64,000 bases of DNA. It comes from Hyphomicrobiales bacterium. GTDB lineage: Bacteria > Pseudomonadota > Alphaproteobacteria > Rhizobiales > Rhizobiaceae. The notes under the pieces were generated by a model. It was not told where the DNA came from. It ran no database searches and saw only the letters and a list, made by a program, of their open reading frames with translations. The stretch's first letter is position 1, and the number at the start of each line of letters is the position of its first letter. Positions 3,907-55,229 of the stretch are shown here, piece after piece. The stretch is taken from contig UBQX01000024.1 of NCBI GenBank assembly GCA_900467685.1, positions 1 to 64,000 on the forward strand, in the 5' to 3' direction. The translations under genes were made by a program, and so were the position numbers.

Positions 3907-4143
3907 GTGACAATGATGGAAACGATGGAGACAATGATGGACAGTGTATCGCTCGAACGGGCCCCGGTCACGACCGTGACATTTGGCAACCGCGTCGCGA
4001 AAGTCCTTGCCGCACTCCGCTGGGCCTTCGTTCTCAATCGCTCGCGCATTGCGCTTTCCGAACTGACCGACGAGCAGCTCGCGGATATCGGCATCAGCCG
4101 GTATGAGGCGGATCGGGAATGCCGAAAGGTGGGACTATTTTGA
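3907..4143 (+). CDS. DUF1127 small arginine-rich protein
   Basis: 78 codons from GTG 3907. Downstream in-frame ATGs at 3913, 3916 and 3946 are possible starts, so the methionine-rich N-terminus may not be translated. The C-terminal 45 residues are the DUF1127 signature: LSELTDEQLADIGISRYEADRE, preceded by a basic amphipathic segment (ALRWAFVLNRSRIALSEL). In Agrobacterium, proteins of this family have been linked to phosphate and carbon metabolism. Two further paralogues lie at 52044 and 52544. This copy is divergent from the MocR regulator. Confidence 0.8.
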   Translation: MTMMETMETMMDSVSLERAPVTTVTFGNRVAKVLAALRWAFVLNRSRIALSELTDEQLADIGISRYEADRECRKVGLF

Positions 4144-4340: not shown

Positions 4341-4465
4341 TGGAGGCTCGGTTGTCCTACCTGGGCTAGGGCGTCGGATGCCCCTCGTCGGCAGCGCGTT
4401 ATCCTTCCCACAAGGGGAGAGGAGGGCGTCCTGCCTTGCCTTCCTACCCGCCATATGCGATCTCG

Positions 4466-5430
<965 letters not shown>

Positions 5431-21108: not shown

Positions 21109-22362
21109 TCACGCCGGGCGCACCAGAACGTGCTTCTTCTTGCCCATCGAGACCTTGATGACGCCATCGGCGGTGATCTCGTTGGTGCCGATCAGCTTGC
21201 GCTCGTCGGAGATGGCCTTGTCGTTGATGCGGATCGCGCCGCCCTGGACGTGGCGGCGGGCTTCGCCGTTGGAGGCGGCAAAGCCGGCCTTGACGAGGAG
21301 CGCGAGCAGTCCGATGCCGGCGTCGAGTTCGGACTTGGCGATTTCGACAGACGGCAGGTTTTCGGCCAGCGCGCCTTCCTCGAAGGTCTTGCGGGCGGTC
21401 TCGGCGGCCTCTTCCGCATTGGCGCGGCCATGCAGCATGGCAGTCACTTCGGTCGCGAGTATCTTCTTGACCTCGTTGATCTCCGAGCCGGCGAGCTTCG
21501 AAAGGCGATCGATTTCAGCCATCGGCAGCGTCGTGTAAAGCTTGAGGAAGCGCGGCACATCGGCGTCTTCCGTGTTGCGCCAGTACTGCCAGAAATCGTA
21601 GGCCGAAAGCATGGCCGGGTTCAGCCAGACAGCGCCCGTCGCGGACTTGCCCATCTTGGCGCCCGACGACGTCGTCAGCAGCGGCGAGGTCAGCGCGTAA
21701 AGCTGCGGCGTCCCCATGCGGTGACCGAGGTCGATGCCGTTGACGATATTGCCCCACTGGTCCGAGCCGCCCATCTGCAACCGGCAGCCGTAGCGCTGCG
21801 ACAGTTCCACGAAGTCGTAGGCCTGCAGGATCATGTAGTTGAATTCGAGGAAGGACAGCGACTGTTCGCGGTCGAGACGCGTTTTGACGCTGTCGAAGGA
21901 AAGCATGCGGTTGACCGAGAAATGCTTGCCGACATCGCGCAGGAATTCGAGGTAGTTCAGCGAACGGAGCCATTCGGCGTTGTTGATCATCAACGCGTCC
22001 TTGGGGCCATCGCCATAGGTCAGGTAATTGGAGAAGACCTGCTTGATCGAGGCGATGTTGCTTTCGATCGTGTCGACCGTCATCAGCTGGCGGGCTTCTT
22101 CCTTGAAGGACGGATCGCCCACCATCCCGGTGCCGCCGCCCATCAGCGAGATCGGCCGGTGGCCGGTCTGCTGGAACCAGTGCAGCATCATGATCTGGAT
22201 CAGCGAGCCGGCATGCAGCGACGGCGCTGTCGGGTCGTAACCGATATAGGCCGTCACGGTTTCCTTGGCGAGCAGGTCATCGAGGCCGCTTTCGTCGGAG
22301 ACCTGATGAATGAAGCCGCGCTCGGAGAGCGTGCGAAGGAAATCGGACTTGAAACCGGACAT
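21109..22362 (-). CDS. tyrS: tyrosyl-tRNA synthetase
   Basis: 417 residues. Class I signature motifs: the HIGH-like element [10 protein letters not shown], the tyrosine-pocket region [12 protein letters not shown] and GGSDQWGNI, and the KMSKS-like [10 protein letters not shown]. The C-terminus (about 350-415) is an S4 RNA-binding domain ([21 protein letters not shown]). It charges tRNA-Tyr in the cytoplasm. ATG 22362 (MSGFKSDF) was chosen over the longer frame; GAGAG precedes it. It is divergent from anmK. Confidence 0.96.
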
Positions 22363-22481
22363 GGACGTAATCTCTCTGCACTCTTGCCAGTAGACGTATT
22401 GTGGGCGCGCCTTTAGCACTGTTTTCAGGCGATTGCACCCGATTCCGTCTTGAATGCGATCTTTCGGCGAGGAGTTTATGC

Positions 22482-23618
22482 ATGCTTGAGACCATGACCG
22501 CGATCGGTTTGATGAGCGGAACCTCGATGGACGGGATCGACGTGGCGGTGGTCGAGACGGATGGGGAGGATTTCGTCAAGCGCGGGCCGGCGATGGAGTT
22601 TTCCTATGCGCCGGAGTTCCGCCGGCGTCTGGCGGCCTCGCTGGAGGATGCCAGGGCGATCACGGAGCGCAGCGAGCGGCCCGGCAGCCTTTCCGCGATC
22701 GAGCGCGAGATTACCGATCTGCATGCGGATGCGGTGAAGCGGTTTCTGGCGGCGAACTGGCTGAAGGCCGAGGATATCGGCGTTGTCGGCTTTCACGGCC
22801 AGACGGTGATCCACCGGCCGGATCAGGGCTACACCGTCCAGATTGGCGACGGTCTTTCGCTGGCTAAGCAAATCGGCATTCCCGTGGTTTACGACATGCG
22901 GGCGAACGACATGGCGCATGGCGGGCAGGGTGCGCCGCTGGTGCCCGCTTATCACGCGGCACTCGCGCGCGGGCTCTACTGGGATCAGTTTCCGGTCGTC
23001 TTCGTGAATATTGGCGGGATTTCGAACCTCACCTATATCGGCGCTGATGGTGAGATCGTCGCCTTCGACAGCGGGCCAGGCAATACGCTGATCGACCAAT
23101 GGGTGGAAGCGGAAGCGGGGATCCCCTATGACGCCGGCGGGTCGATTGCCTCGGAGGGCGTGGTGAATTCGGTGCTTGCCGAGCGCTATCTGTCTCACGC
23201 CTTCTTTACCGACGAAACGCGCCGCTCGCTCGACCGTAATGATTTTCGTCCGCCGGAAAGCCATGAGGTCGGTCTGCATGATGGCGCGCGGACGCTCGCC
23301 CATGTCAGCGCCGCCGCCATCCTGAAATCGGCGCGTCACCTGCCCGTGCGGCCGCGCACCTATATCATCTGCGGTGGCGGTCGGTTGAACCGCGCCATTG
23401 TCGGGGACCTCGATCGCATGGCTGGCGAGGAAGGGGCGAAGGTGGTGATTGCCGAGGACCTAGGCTTCAACGGCGCGGGCATGGAGGCGGAGGCCTGGGC
23501 CTATCTGGCCGTGCGCTCGCTGAAAGATCTGCCGCTTACCTATCCGGGGACGACGGGGGTGAAGATGCCGGTTTCGGGCGGTGTGCTGGTGATGCCGGAG
23601 GCAGACCCGGCTTCCTGA
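22482..23618 (+). CDS. anmK: anhydro-N-acetylmuramic acid kinase
   Basis: 378 residues of the ASKHA kinase fold. The N-terminal phosphate loop is [35 protein letters not shown] and [12 protein letters not shown] follow, all typical of AnmK. The enzyme phosphorylates and opens 1,6-anhydro-MurNAc to give MurNAc-6-phosphate during cell-wall recycling. ATG 22482 has GGCGAGGAG upstream. The divergent tyrS-anmK arrangement is common in rhizobia. Complete and ordinary in length. Confidence 0.96.
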
Positions 23619-41277: not shown

Positions 41278-41440
41278 GCCCCCTCTGTCCCTTTGCCTGA
41301 GATTGTTATCCCTTCGGCATGCGGTTTCCCGCCATTCTCCAGAGTGCAGTTCTGATCCGTTGGTCCTTTGGCCTGAGAGTTTCCGGGGCGGTTGCTCCTT
41401 CGGCACCAGTCGAGTGTTCGACCAGATTCTCCCAACGGGA
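41278..41440 (-). promoter_or_regulatory. tandem glycine riboswitch upstream of gcvT
   Basis: On the minus strand two aptamers follow each other. First: TTGGGAGAATCTGG, GGTGCCGAAGGAGCAA and AACTCTCAGGCCAAAGGACC. Second: CTCTGGAGAATGG, CATGCCGAAGGGATAACAA, and ATCTCAGGCAAAGGGACAGAG. These are the conserved GCCGAAGG and CUCAGGCAAAAGGAC blocks of each glycine aptamer. The gcv operon is the standard target. The distance to the gcvT start is about 75 nt. Confidence 0.95.
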
Positions 41441-41447
41441 TGTGCCA

Positions 41448-50493: not shown

Positions 50494-51912
50494 TTACGCC
50501 GTTTCCAGCCAGCTTTTGCAGGCACTCAGCGCGCGGGCGCTCATGGCCTTCTTCTTGGCGATCGCCTTGTCCTTGCCGCGGAAACGCTTGAGGCCTTCCG
50601 GCCTGACGATCGAGCCCGTTTCGAGTTCCGGGAACAGACCAAAATTGACGTTCATCGGCTGGAAGGAGCGCTTGCCCGGCTCTTCATCGGTCGAGAGATG
50701 GCCGCCGGTAATATGACCGAGCAATGCGCCGAGCGCCGTTTCCGGCGGCGGCGGCACGATTTCTCGACCCAACCGTTCTGCGGCGGCAAACCGGCCAGCC
50801 AGCAGGCCGATGCTGGCGCTTTCGACATAGCCTTCGCAGCCGGTGATCTGGCCGGCAAAACGCAAGCCCGGACGCGACTTCAGCGTCAGCGAGCGGTCGA
50901 GCAGAATGGGCGAATTGATATAGGTGTTGCGGTGCAGACCGCCGAGGCGGGCGAATTCGGCATTCTGCAGGCCGGGGATCATGCGAAAGATCTCGGCCTG
51001 GGCGCCATATTTCAGCTTCGTCTGGAAACCGACCATATTGTAGAGCGTGCCGAGTGCATTGTCCTGCCGCAGCTGCACGACCGCATAGGCCTTGACGGTC
51101 GGATTATGCGCGTTGGTGAGGCCCATGGGCTTCATCGGCCCGTGGCGAAGGGTTTCGCGCCCGCGCTCGGCCATGATCTCGATGGGCAGGCAGCCGTCGA
51201 AATAGGGCGTGCCTTCCCATTCGTGGAAGCCGGTCTTGTCGCCGGCAATCAGCGCGTCGACGAAAGCGTTGTATTGCTGTTCGTCCATCGGGCAGTTGAT
51301 GTAGTCCTTGCCCGTGCCGCCTGGGCCAACCTTGTCGTAGCGCGACTGATACCAGCAGATGTCCATGTCGATCGAATCGCGGTGCACGATGGGCGCGATC
51401 GCGTCGAAGAAAGCGAGCTGGTCTTCGCCGGTCGCCTTCTGGATCGCCTTGGCGAGGCCGGGCGATGTCAGCGGGCCGGTCGCGACGATGGCGAGGTCCC
51501 ACTCTTCCGGCGGAAGGCCATCGATTTCTTCGCGCACGATGGTGATCAGCGGTTCGGCTTCCAGCGCGCGGGTGACGGCTTCCGAGAACCCGTCGCGATC
51601 GACGGCGAGTGCGCCACCGGCGGGGACCTGATGCCGGTCGGCGCAGGACATGATGAGCGAGCCTGCCATGCGCATCTCGGCGTGAATCACGCCCACTGCA
51701 TTGCTCTCGGCATCGTCGGAGCGGAAGGAATTCGAGCAGACGAGTTCGGCGAGACCGTCGGTCTTGTGTGCGTCCGTGCCTTTGACGCCACGCATTTCGT
51801 GCAGGATGACGGGAACGCCGGCGCGCGCAAGCTGCCAGGCGGCTTCGGAACCGGCAAGACCGCCGCCGACGACGTGAACGGGGGAGATGGAAGTCGCGAT
51901 GATGTTTGTCAT
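50494..51912 (-). CDS. trmFO: tRNA (uracil-5-)-methyltransferase, folate-dependent
   Basis: 472 residues. FAD-binding [16 protein letters not shown] at the start, then [24 protein letters not shown]-like region [15 protein letters not shown] ([14 protein letters not shown]) and a C-terminal [20 protein letters not shown] block. It uses FAD and methylene-tetrahydrofolate to make ribothymidine at tRNA position 54. ATG 51912 (MTNIIATSI) is preferred over the upstream ATG at 51924. It is convergent with the hypothetical gene at 49978. Confidence 0.95.
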
Positions 51913-51991
51913 GGGCGGCTCCATATCATGAGCGCGGGCGCAAGCACGACAAAAAATTCATGATTCCATACAACTTGTCTCGACAGAATCG

Positions 51992-52043: not shown

Positions 52044-52187
52044 TCAGCGTGCCTGGCGGGCAGCGACCATCCGGATGTCATAACGCGTCAGGCCGATGTC
52101 GCTGAGCGTGTGCGTCGGCAGGTTGCTCAGTTCGGACAGGGTGCGGCGGTAGGACAGCCAGTTCTTGGCAAGACGGATCGGGTTCAT
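52044..52187 (-). CDS. DUF1127 mini-protein, copy A
   Basis: 47 residues: MNPIRLAKNWLSYRRTLSEL then SNLPTHTLSDIGLTRYDIRM. The basic helix plus L-x-D-I-G-L-x-R-x-D-I signature is DUF1127. The protein is too short for ordinary gene callers. In the plant-associated relatives studied, these proteins influence phosphate and carbon metabolism and RNA. GGAAACCACC lies before the start. Its promoter shares a block with copy B (see 52275-52299). Confidence 0.85.
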   Translation of the reverse strand: MNPIRLAKNWLSYRRTLSELSNLPTHTLSDIGLTRYDIRMVAARQAR

Positions 52188-52274
52188 GGTGGTTTCCTCA
52201 AAGTTTTCTAGATCCACTGCGCCGGTATGCGTCGCATAACCGCCCCGTCATCGCTGTGGTCTTTCGATGAGGAC

Positions 52275-52299
52275 TATATAGTGCATCGCAACAGCAATG
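52275..52299 (-). promoter_or_regulatory. promoter-like block of DUF1127 copy A
   Basis: On the minus strand CATTGCTGTTGCGATGCACTATATA ends in a -10-like TATATA. It is a near copy of CATTGCTGCGATGCAACATATA upstream of copy B (52750-52771), differing mainly by a three-base insertion. It lies 88 bp before the copy A start. Confidence 0.5.
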
Positions 52300-52486
52300 T
52301 GCAGTGCGGAATTTCATCATCTGCCATGCATTTGTGCATCTGCTTGCCCACGCCACAATCGTTGCTTACAAAATAGGCAGATGAGTGCGTCGCTTTTAGG
52401 ATGTAGCGCGTCGCTTGCGTCGTGAATTCGCCTTGTAAACCCGGGTGTTAAGATTTTATGAACGTCCGGGCTATGAGGCGGACAGC

Positions 52487-52543: not shown

Positions 52544-52687
52544 TTAGCGAACGGCGGCGCGGGCTACGCGCTGGATGTCGGAACGGGCAATGCCGAGGTC
52601 CGTCAGTTCGCGGTTCGACATGCGGTCCAGTTCGACGACCGTCTGACGGTACTTGCGCCAGGTAGCAAAAGAGCGAGCGATGTTCAT
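52544..52687 (-). CDS. DUF1127 mini-protein, copy B
   Basis: 47 residues: MNIARSFATWRKYRQTVVEL then DRMSNRELTDLGIARSDIQRV. It is the same length as copy A with about half the positions shared in the signature. The start has AAGAAGGAAAAGGCC upstream. It has its own promoter-like block (52750-52771) and its own terminator (52487-52520), so copies A and B are separate units on one strand. Confidence 0.87.
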   Translation of the reverse strand: MNIARSFATWRKYRQTVVELDRMSNRELTDLGIARSDIQRVARAAVR

Positions 52688-52749
52688 GGCCTTTTCCTTC
52701 TTTAGGGTTTGGCAACGCGTCTGGCTGCCTCTTCATCTCTGAGATCGGT

Positions 52750-52771
52750 TATATGTTGCATCGCAGCAATG
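52750..52771 (-). promoter_or_regulatory. promoter-like block of DUF1127 copy B
   Basis: On the minus strand CATTGCTGCGATGCAACATATA carries a -10-like CATATA/ATATAA. It matches the block upstream of copy A at 52275-52299. It lies 63 bp before the copy B start. Confidence 0.5.
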
Positions 52772-53040
52772 ATAAAGCGCAAATGCGGAAGATCACCCAT
52801 GCGCCAAATGCATGGCGTCTCGCAAACCTTCGATTCTATTAAGGATTTTTTAACGGACGGCTTTGCGCCCGCTGCTGTCTCTGGTGAAGTGGCGTGAAGA
52901 GACGTTGCGAGTTTACGCATGCGCCCGACGACGCATTGGCCACGACGACATTGCAGACGGAACGGCTATTCCGTTTACGCGCTGGTTTGCGGAAAGGGAT
53001 TTGAAGCAGGGGAAACTGGAACGCTGGTCCAGAAACTATA

Positions 53041-53150
53041 ACGCCCGCCGCGGGAGGAGGTGCGGCGGGCGTCATATAGGCGACTGACAACTGGGAGGAG
53101 GAGTGTTGCCAGTCATAAACGAGACGCCCTGGGAGGAGGAGTGGGCGGTC
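53041..53150 (-). ncRNA. array of three hairpins with CCUCCUCCC loops (cuckoo/CcsR-like small RNA)
   Basis: Read on the minus strand. Hairpin 1 (53125-53147): stem CGCCC/GGGCG, loop ACTCCTCCTCCCA. Hairpin 2 (53084-53112): 8-bp stem CTGGCAAC/GTTGTCAG with one G-U pair, and exactly the same loop ACTCCTCCTCCCA. Hairpin 3 (53041-53072): perfect 11-bp GC stem ACGCCCGCCGC, loop ACCTCCTCCC; it probably ends the transcript. The stems differ but the loops are kept, so the loop is under selection. Loops with CCUCCUCCC are the mark of the alphaproteobacterial cuckoo/CcsR small RNAs, which are associated with DUF1127 genes. The region 52772-53465 otherwise holds no gene I can support. Confidence 0.75.
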
Positions 53151-53465
53151 CCGAATTCGAATTTCGTTTTTCAGATCAGTCTGCAGTTCTCTGCGCCCGT
53201 CTGATGATTTGAATATAGATCAGCCATTCCGTTTTGTGCACTGCGAAATGAACATATGTGGCATGCACGGATCGCATGGCTTTTGTCTATCATCTTTAGG
53301 GATGATACCAGTCCATTCTTAAGGTGTTCCTAACACGCGGTCCTGCATCTAGGGATGCCGACACCCAAAACCGGTATTTTCTGTTGCGATCTTCATGACG
53401 GGTGATATAGAGGCGGCTTCCGTGCGGACCGGCTCCTTGAGGAGAGGGGATGGTCTGCTGTGAGA

Positions 53466-53550
53466 GCGGGTATGGCGGAATTGGTAGACGCAGTGGATTT
53501 AGGTTCCACCGCTGAAAGGCGTGGGGGTTCGAGTCCCTCTACCCGCACCA
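53466..53550 (+). tRNA. tRNA-Leu (anticodon UAG)
   Basis: An 85-nt class II tRNA with encoded CCA (53548-53550). Acceptor GCGGGTA pairs with TACCCGC; anticodon stem-loop GTGGATTTAGGTTCCAC gives UAG; long variable arm; T-loop GTTCGAGTC. Confidence 0.95.
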
Positions 53551-53732: not shown

Positions 53733-55229
53733 ATGCAGGTAATCGAAACGCTCGCTGAAGGGCTGAAGCGCGAAATCAAGGTCGTCATCCCGGCCAAGGA
53801 CATGGAAGCTCAGATGAACGAGCGCCTTGAGGGTGTGAAGGACCGCGTCCGGATCAACGGTTTCCGTCCGGGCAAGGTACCGTTCGCACAGCTCAAGAAG
53901 ATGTACGGCAAGTCGGTCATGGCCGAACTCGTCAATGAGATCGTCCGCGTTCGTCCGAACGAAATCCTGACCGAGCGCGGCGAAAAGTCCGCGACGCAGC
54001 CGGATATCTCGATGACCGAGGACGAGGCAGAAGCCGACAAGATCCTCGCGGCCGAAGCCGATTTCGAATTCACGATCGCTTATGAAGTGATCCCGAAGTT
54101 CGAACTCAAGGACGTTTCGAAGATCAAGGTTACGCGCGAAGTCGTCGACATTGCCGACGAGGAAGTCGACACGCAGGTCCTGCAGATCGCTGAAAGCGCC
54201 AAGACCTACGAAAGCAAGAAGGGCAAGGCCGCCAAGGGCGACCGCGTCACGATGGACTACCTCGGCAAGGTTGACGGCGTTGCCTTCGACGGCGGCAAGG
54301 ACGAAGACGCAGAACTCGTCATCGGTTCCAACCGCTTCATCCCGGGCTTCGAAGACCAGCTCGTTGGCGTCAAGGCTGGCGACGAAAAGGTCATCACCGT
54401 GACGTTCCCGGCTGACTACCCGGCTGCGAACCTCGCCGGCAAGGAAGCTACCTTCGACATCAAGGTCAAGGACGTGGCTGGCGCCAAGGACGTCGAAATC
54501 AACGACGAACTGGCAACGCAGCTCGGTCTCGAGTCCGCTGAAAAGCTCCGCGAAATCGTTCGCAGCCAGCTCGAAGGCCAGTACACCTCGGTTGCTCGCC
54601 AGAAGCTGAAGCGTCAGATCCTCGACCAGCTCGACGAAATGTACGACTTTGCAACGCCGGAAAAGCTGGTGTCTGCCGAGTTCGACAACATCTGGCGCCA
54701 GATCAACACCGATCTCGCCCAGTCCGGCAAGACCTTCGCTGACGAAGACACGACGGAAGAAGCCGCACGCGAAGAGTATAACAAGCTCGCACAGCGTCGC
54801 GTTCGCCTCGGCCTCGTTCTTTCCGAGATCGGCGACAAGGCCAAGATCGAAGTTTCCGACGAGGAAATGCAGCAGTCGCTCTTCGCGCAGCTGCGTCAGT
54901 TCCCCGGCCAGGAAAAGGAAATCCTCGACTACTTCCGCAACACGCCCGGCGCTGCGGCTTCGCTGCGCGCGCCGATCTTCGAAGAGAAGGTCATCGACCA
55001 TCTGCTGAACGAGATCTCCGTTTCGGACAAGAAGGTCTCCAAGGAAGAGCTGCTCGCTGACGACGAAGCCGAAGGCAAGTCTGAGGGCAAGAAGGCTGCT
55101 CCGAAGAAGAAGGCTGCCGCCAAGAAGGAAGCCGCTGCTGAAGAGGCATCTGCCGACGAAGCTGCTTCTGAAGAAAAGCCGGCTGCGAAGAAGAAGGCTC
55201 CGGCCAAGAAGAAGGCTGCCGACGAATAA
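53733..55229 (+). CDS. tig: trigger factor chaperone
   Basis: 498 residues. Ribosome-binding domain with the FRPGKVP signature near residue 45 ([19 protein letters not shown]), PPIase domain (about 165-240: [40 protein letters not shown]) and a helical C-terminal arm. It binds nascent chains at the ribosome exit. The last 60 residues are an unusual Lys/Ala/Glu repeat ([16 protein letters not shown] and so on). ATG 53733 follows GAAGG. It is preceded by tRNA-Leu and followed by a strong terminator. Confidence 0.96.

Follow-up and report, generated by a model that had tools for sequence, protein, structure and literature searches.

A tig-linked alpha-r14 (cuckoo) small RNA and its DUF1127 neighbours in Rhizobiaceae with a shared, putatively LsrB-type promoter signature

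Cuckoo RNAs have been described as consecutive hairpins with CCUCCUCCC in each loop and variable stems (PMC3927594, section 2.7). A published link between the regulator LsrB and such an RNA exists for NfeR1 (Smr14C2, SmelC397) of Sinorhizobium meliloti, for which the available sections of PMC10746234 give ntrB as a target and an NtrC motif in the promoter that is found in plant symbionts only. The predicted targets of NfeR1 are rich in transporters, according to the same sections and to excerpts of the review PMC7143759, and in the latter only one of the six S. meliloti copies was reliably seen on Northern blots under the conditions tested. In Rhodobacter sphaeroides the CcsR1-4/CcaF1 operon (RF02791; CIN1 locus) likewise links CCUCCUCCC hairpins to DUF1127, with the DUF1127 gene first and an RpoH-type site reported. 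DUF1127 proteins bind RNA in Rhodobacter and protein in Salmonella and Agrobacterium (PMC12501420, in part), and the parts of PMC7486931 and PMC12595884 at hand list abcR, other sRNAs and small proteins, and not cuckoo RNAs, among the VtlR targets of Brucella and Agrobacterium.

We analysed a 64,000-nucleotide stretch of DNA (the window; positions 1 to 64,000 of contig UBQX01000024.1, assembly GCA_900467685.1, from a Hyphomicrobiales bacterium of the Rhizobiaceae), in which an earlier note, made from the letters alone, had pointed out three consecutive minus-strand hairpins with CCUCCUCCC in every loop. Both the fold and a covariance search bear this out. The minus strand from 53207 to 53030 folds as three consecutive hairpins at -72.7 kcal/mol (z -5.85), with equally good folds in 0 of 200 shuffles, and positions 53159-53036 (minus) match the ar14 model RF02344 over its full length (1-123) at 109.8 bits against a cut-off of 58.8. 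This score, with an E-value of 2.1e-19 for the 64-kb window searched, places the array far beyond chance. The array and its neighbours are:

50494-51924, minus strand: trmFO (GidA family), a conserved neighbour (PF01134, 334.2 bits; conserved order)
52044-52193, minus strand: DUF1127 gene b, 49 aa (PF06568, 49.6 bits, cut-off 23.3)
52544-52687, minus strand: DUF1127 gene a, 47 aa (PF06568, 53.2 bits, cut-off 23.3)
53036-53159, minus strand: ar14 (alpha-r14, cuckoo) sRNA core, three hairpins with CCUCCUCCC loops (RF02344, fold, covariation)
53037-53076, minus strand: hairpin 3, CCUCCUCCC in the loop (fold)
53082-53114, minus strand: hairpin 2, CUCCUCCUCCC in the loop (fold)
53120-53153, minus strand: hairpin 1, CUCCUCCUCCC in the loop (fold)
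53160-53207, minus strand: predicted 5' leader (about 50 nt), small hairpin at about 53204-53171 (-10 position, fold)
53466-53550, plus strand: tRNA-Leu, the neighbour on the other side (Rfam scan)
53733-55229, plus strand: tig (trigger factor), the anchor for relatives (profile match)

All three loops carry CCUCCUCCC; those of hairpins 1 and 2 have the 15-nt CACUCCUCCUCCCAG in common and that of hairpin 3 reads CACCUCCUCCCG. The CCUCC in the loop is the anti-Shine-Dalgarno core, and the complementarity to a ribosome-binding-site-like sequence noticed earlier is real. The strong 3' stem of hairpin 3 is a possible terminator, despite the weak U run that follows it in the window; U runs at this place are longer in many relatives. 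Together with a slightly shifted pairing register in the first stem compared with most relatives, this weak U run is what sets the window RNA apart from other ar14 members, and in its full-length match, three hairpins and CCUCCUCCC loops nothing essential differs from the family. The array also displays the consecutive hairpins, the loop motif and the variable stems of the cuckoo description. Of the cuckoo/CcsR identity first proposed, the cuckoo half stands on the ar14 match and the CcsR half falls: the covariance search with the CcsR1 model (RF02791), which had been suggested as a check, stays below the cut-off (34.3 of 65.3 bits), and CcsR1 membership was rejected. The 6C RNA match and the remaining sub-threshold Rfam matches were taken as chance. 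Among 121 genomes of the same family, ar14 was detected at E <= 0.001 in 116 and above the cut-off in 108, against 0 of 14 control genomes, and the window's own genome has four matches, three of them above the cut-off. Judged by covariance match and fold, the array is real and adds one more putative small regulatory RNA to the described alpha-r14 ("cuckoo") family.

Relatives of the locus were collected in one scan for trigger-factor (tig) relatives, which gave 80 loci from named records. At 76 of the 80, one or more arrays lie on the strand opposite to tig and are followed by at least one same-strand DUF1127 gene; two DUF1127 genes are present at 67 of the 80 loci, only one at nine of the 76 array-bearing loci, and two or more tandem arrays at 45 of the 80. 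No array was found at the remaining four loci: the contig start truncates L034 and L055, and at L031 and L038 the array is absent although the full 6 kb upstream of tig is present. Among the Rhizobiaceae loci examined, an array with same-strand DUF1127 behind it is therefore the normal arrangement at this place. In the window the array ends 348 bp before the first DUF1127 gene, and the Pfam matches agree with the original placing of the array about 350 bp upstream of two such genes on the same strand. The order does differ from the Rhodobacter operon, as had been said, in that the array lies 5' of the DUF1127 genes with separate promoter-like regions, whereas DUF1127 comes first at CIN1; it is not unusual, however, being the conserved order of the tig loci, and a further copy in the window's own genome (contig C34) has the CcsR/CIN1 order, DUF1127 first and then a four-loop array. 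Two single loci may be mentioned here: Rhizobium rhizolycopersici (L082) has three tandem arrays at its tig locus, and a metagenome bin labelled Arenimonas sp. (L062) has this Rhizobiaceae locus, the bin probably being mislabelled or mixed.

Tandem arrays split into two classes, class P (tig-proximal) and class D (nearer the DUF1127 genes), which are alike enough to be duplicates. GAATTCG precedes hairpin 1 in most P arrays, and CATCGATC is often found at the start of D arrays. Class scoring took arrays with at least three loops and less than 150 nt (43 of 45 P, 40 of 45 D and 29 of 32 single arrays). In the D array of S. meliloti 4H41, TGCA-N6-GCAT and TGC-N11-GCA start 44 nt apart; this is the published spacing of the LsrB and NtrC sites of NfeR1, which start at -72 and -116 (PMC10746234, in the sections available), and NfeR1 is therefore taken as class D. 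With the P profile the window array reaches 94.3 bits, with the D (NfeR1 class) profile 69.0 bits; it groups with P and not D by its 5' sequence as well, and was rejected as an NfeR1 ortholog. By these measures it belongs to NfeR1's sister class, and no D array is present at the window locus. It has in common with NfeR1 the family, the locus and the 58 nt between an LsrB-like box and CTATAT, with one base of the box itself differing from the published form, but differs in its class, in the leader of about 50 nt predicted ahead of hairpin 1, in the lack of an NtrC-type TGC-N11-GCA in the 200 nt before its box, and in that ntrB is not a clear target.

For covariation, 70 P-class arrays were aligned, comprising the 43 P arrays and 27 of the 29 single arrays (those of L021 and L023 are class D and were left out). 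The stems of these relatives are paired in 96.6% of 2410 cells, and 20 of 35 pairs have changed on both sides, a count reached in 0 of 500 shuffles; doubly changed cells number 258 against 72 in shuffles, and the covariation score is 0.366 against 0.170 shuffled and at most 0.116 slid. The CCUCCUCCC loops are near-invariant in all this while the stems drift. The covariation-like pattern that the earlier note had seen among the hairpins of one molecule thus recurs between species, with the compensatory changes in related genomes it had hoped for; the loss of stems and loops in close relatives, which it had named as one finding that would speak against it, was not seen, both being kept.

The claim of a separate promoter also stood: the sRNA has a promoter-like region of its own, an LsrB-like box followed by CTATAT, and comparable elements precede both DUF1127 genes:

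52276-52281, minus strand: -10 CTATAT of DUF1127 b (spacing)
52326-52338, minus strand: TGCA-N5-GCAT variant box upstream of DUF1127 b (spacing)
52749-52754, minus strand: -10-like ATATAA of DUF1127 a (hexamer placed by eye)
52799-52812, minus strand: LsrB/VtlR-like box TGCATTTGGCGCAT, then GGGTG, upstream of DUF1127 a (motif, spacing)
53213-53218, minus strand: -10 CTATAT of the sRNA promoter (exact box-N44-CTATAT match; same spacing in relatives)
53263-53276, minus strand: LsrB/VtlR-like box TGCGATCCGTGCAT of the sRNA (motif match, one base off the published S. meliloti TGCA-N6-GCAT)

In all three window promoters (sRNA, DUF1127 a, DUF1127 b) the GCAT half lies 49 nt before the TAT of the -10. 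The sRNA box reads TGCG-N6-GCAT and lies 58 nt from CTATAT, as at the S. meliloti D array. An LsrB/VtlR-type box at the activating position is thus present in the window, one base loose at the sRNA and an N5 variant at DUF1127 b, whose window promoter has no exact TGC[AG]-N6-GCAT and no published GCAT-N3-TG-N3-T. A LysR-type box upstream of small DUF1127 genes is likewise a feature of the VtlR regulon (Brucella DUF1127 proteins, Agrobacterium atu1667).

Across the relatives, TGC[AG]-N6-GCAT stands upstream of 41 of 45 P arrays, 27 of 32 single arrays, 29 of 45 D arrays and 75 of 77 DUF1127-a genes, against 0.9, 0.6, 0.7 and 1.7 expected from dinucleotide shuffles; this and the following counts come from related sequences, which are not independent, and the four promoter types belong to different genes. 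Upstream of DUF1127-b the exact form is found in 3 of 68 regions (2.7 expected), with the N5 variant there instead. GCAT-N3-TG-N3-T, the published VtlR form of Brucella and Agrobacterium, is present before 72 of 77 DUF1127-a genes (4.2 expected), 33 of 45 D arrays and 36 of 68 DUF1127-b genes, is rare before P arrays (11 of 45; 2.2 expected) and single arrays (4 of 32; 1.8 expected), and is absent from the window sRNA promoter; its expectation across promoter types ranges from 1.8 to 4.6. Taking the best CTATAT match with at most one mismatch, the distance from the box start is exactly 58 nt for 36 of 41 P, 19 of 27 single-array and 19 of 36 D boxes, whilst DUF1127-a boxes have it at 57 or 58 nt in 66 of 79 cases and at 35 nt in 11 of 79, the window's included. 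For GCAT to TAT, 49 nt is the commonest distance in every promoter type (51 of 75 P, 23 of 47 D, 38 of 77 DUF1127-a, 50 of 68 DUF1127-b), with 48 nt in 34 of 77 DUF1127-a promoters and secondary peaks at 38 nt for DUF1127-b (30 of 68) and at 32-33 nt for DUF1127-a (20 and 21 of 77); in 50 base-order shuffles no distance occurred more than 4 times. In geometry the window promoter agrees with the LsrB-dependent promoter of NfeR1; from this we infer LsrB-type control, and the common signature suggests that one regulator turns on the sRNA and both DUF1127 genes together. The shared promoters could partly be duplication products. A second conserved block, TTGCACTGCACA in most relatives, occupies the -35 region of P-class sRNA and DUF1127-b promoters (about 53233-53247 and 52298-52310, minus strand, in the window; the same place in L005-L084), and could be an activation half-site of the LysR protein.

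When the window's own genome was scanned for the exact pattern TGCR-N6-GCAT-N44-CTATAT, two matches were returned, one at the window sRNA and one at the DUF1127 gene belonging to the C34 copy. Allowing one mismatch adds five (seven in all, backward control one), so that three matches lie at ar14 loci, the third at the C39 copy by way of a small ORF, and one lies just upstream of ar15/AbcR on contig C42 (RF02345, 91.9 bits). The AbcR RNAs are LsrB/VtlR targets in the available parts of PMC7486931 and PMC12595884, and the scan therefore recovered a positive control that had not been used in building it; AbcR1 and AbcR2 resemble the window RNA in the LsrB/VtlR-like box and in ABC-transporter targets (published for AbcR), but belong to a different RNA family and, here, sit beside a LysR gene. 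Two further one-mismatch matches, one inside an ORF on C29 and one on C31 whose GCAT half is broken and which immediately precedes a 257-aa ORF, look like chance. The last, on C23 (161799-161862, minus; L105), precedes two small ORFs, the first of 59 aa (MHATFRSTHSGF...), as judged by eye, and these small proteins are possible regulon members. At the C39 site (about 22350-22782; L102) a fourth ar14-like copy follows an ORF of about 50 aa behind the LsrB-type box; the ORF has no Pfam match even at E 1 and is not claimed as DUF1127-like. The C41 ar14 copy has a box upstream too. Directly before the C34 array, about 57 nt ahead of CTATTAT, we noted by eye a second box, TGCATTTCATGCAT, and this array in CIN1 order may have an LsrB-type promoter of its own.

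In the 121 family genomes the exact box-N44-CTATAT pattern gave 44 matches in 34 genomes (control 2), and is absent from 87, although 116 genomes have ar14. Within the 700 nt that follow, a DUF1127 gene comes first at 23 of the 44 and a CCUCCUCCC array at 13 (36 of 44 together). Because the pattern was drawn from the tig locus, matches there are circular, and independent support comes only from the 23 places away from this locus (neither tig nor trmFO matched within about 4 kb), where DUF1127 is first at 13 and an array at two (15 of 23). A search out to about 10 kb likewise gave neither tig nor trmFO around these 15, as far as the contigs reach, the view being shorter for L184, on a 7-kb contig, and for one match (L198, L216) 1.4 kb from a contig end; one first-feature DUF1127 match is weak (L180, 22 bits). 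Eight of the 44 matches lead to neither DUF1127 nor an array, nor to AbcR or another Rfam family. The sites L191, L192 and L193, exact in the pattern and with no DUF1127, array or Rfam family, are candidate regulon members.

The LysR gene on C42, beside trxB and AbcR, encodes a protein 86% identical to one S. meliloti protein, with the second-best at 27%. NCBIfam does not name it LsrB; on account of the S. meliloti match and the two neighbours, it is likely the LsrB ortholog.

Beside the family membership, structure, gene order, promoter geometry and likely LsrB ortholog observed here, we infer LsrB binding, activation and translational silencing from published work on NfeR1, AbcR and VtlR. 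Our preferred reading, to which we assign a probability of roughly 0.7, is that of an LsrB-activated trans-acting sRNA that would block ribosome-binding sites and be co-regulated with its DUF1127 neighbours. The window array belongs to the P class (the one tig-proximal to the NfeR1-type array in two-array relatives), here as the sole array at the locus. LsrB/VtlR, bound at 53263-53276, would switch on the sRNA promoter and give a predicted transcript of about 170 nt starting near 53206. Each of its three loops could base-pair with a ribosome-binding site of the GGGAGGAG type and prevent translation; the genes silenced would most likely include those for nutrient uptake. DUF1127 a and b would be separate transcription units that, with a like box and spacing, are made together with the sRNA.

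The strongest competitor, which we consider unlikely, is an ordinary ar14 sRNA whose promoter resembles those of the DUF1127 genes through ancestry or a different regulator, with no LsrB co-regulation. It would fit the duplicate-like P and D arrays, the looseness of the box (R at position 4, N5 or N6), the 87 of 121 genomes without the strict pattern, and the standing of LsrB control of class P as a prediction; against it speak a 49-nt GCAT-to-TAT distance kept in the promoters of four different genes, and a scan that reaches DUF1127 genes or arrays where tig and trmFO are lacking, and AbcR in the own genome.

For the targets, the own genome contains 42 instances of GGGAGGAG-N3-10-ATG against 8 for the backward control, an excess of strong Shine-Dalgarno sites that is partly generic. 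Thirty of the 42 sites were examined, of which 20 lead into an ORF of 60 aa or more and 10 do not; behind the 20 are six ABC-transporter parts and three AMP-binding ligases, in agreement with the transporter-rich target predictions reported for NfeR1. The six transporter sites give duplexes of -17.0 to -19.5 kcal/mol, values that are circular, as the sites were chosen for GGGAGGAG. Two candidates were not supported. As a conserved target, ntrB (taken here as the ORF before ntrC, with the start codon set by reading) gives a duplex of -9.6 kcal/mol, where the background has a median of -7.3 and a 5% point of -12.9. Cis-targeting of the DUF1127 mRNAs by the loops gives -6.3 and -7.4 kcal/mol, about the background median.

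The CCUCC in the loops, and loops that stay nearly invariant while the stems drift, would also fit a sponge that binds a protein or the ribosome (as a 16S anti-Shine-Dalgarno mimic) with no mRNA pairing. We regard this as quite improbable, in view of an NfeR1 variant with all three loop seeds changed that no longer silenced ntrB (PMC10746234, sections available) and of the three-motif redundancy genetically confirmed for other targets (PMC7143759, in part). Least probable, by a small step, is an RpoH-controlled RNA of a stress operon like that of CcsR, cut out of a common transcript with DUF1127 and maturing with the help of the DUF1127 protein, an idea to which the identical loop motif, the adjacent DUF1127 genes and the RNA-binding DUF1127 protein CcaF1, which takes part in CcsR maturation (PMC10253847, in part), lend some appeal, and against which stand the sub-threshold CcsR1 score, the position of the array 5' of the genes and the separate promoter-like regions of the array and each DUF1127 gene.

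Returning to the LsrB-activated sRNA, a wider version would have the cuckoo RNAs and DUF1127 proteins throughout Rhizobiaceae form a single LsrB/VtlR regulon, with the box at a fixed distance from the -10; we see this as an even bet. If true, a redox-responsive LysR regulator would make both ribosome-site-blocking sRNAs and small arginine-rich DUF1127 proteins, which may process or guide the cuckoo sRNAs. The linkage of the two kinds of gene, whichever comes first, would then be accounted for, and NfeR1's tig-proximal sister would be a second active sRNA of the regulon. The new part, if it holds, is regulatory: one promoter signature that recurs, over loci and genomes, before both cuckoo RNAs and DUF1127 genes. 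An LsrB-type promoter shared at unrelated places in several genomes would give a concrete reason for the cuckoo-DUF1127 linkage, and the work draws attention to an array next to NfeR1 that is conserved together with its own promoter. A joint regulon of LsrB, cuckoo RNAs and DUF1127 was not found in searches of one open-licence library; Eisfeld et al. 2021, which reportedly deals with sRNAs under LsrB control in A. tumefaciens, may already cover some of this.

Elsewhere in the window, a third, more divergent DUF1127 match (37.6 bits) occurs shortly before a cobalamin riboswitch (90.4 bits; 4033-4110 and 4458-4676, plus strand), and a glycine riboswitch lies at 41351-41444 on the minus strand (59.9 bits).
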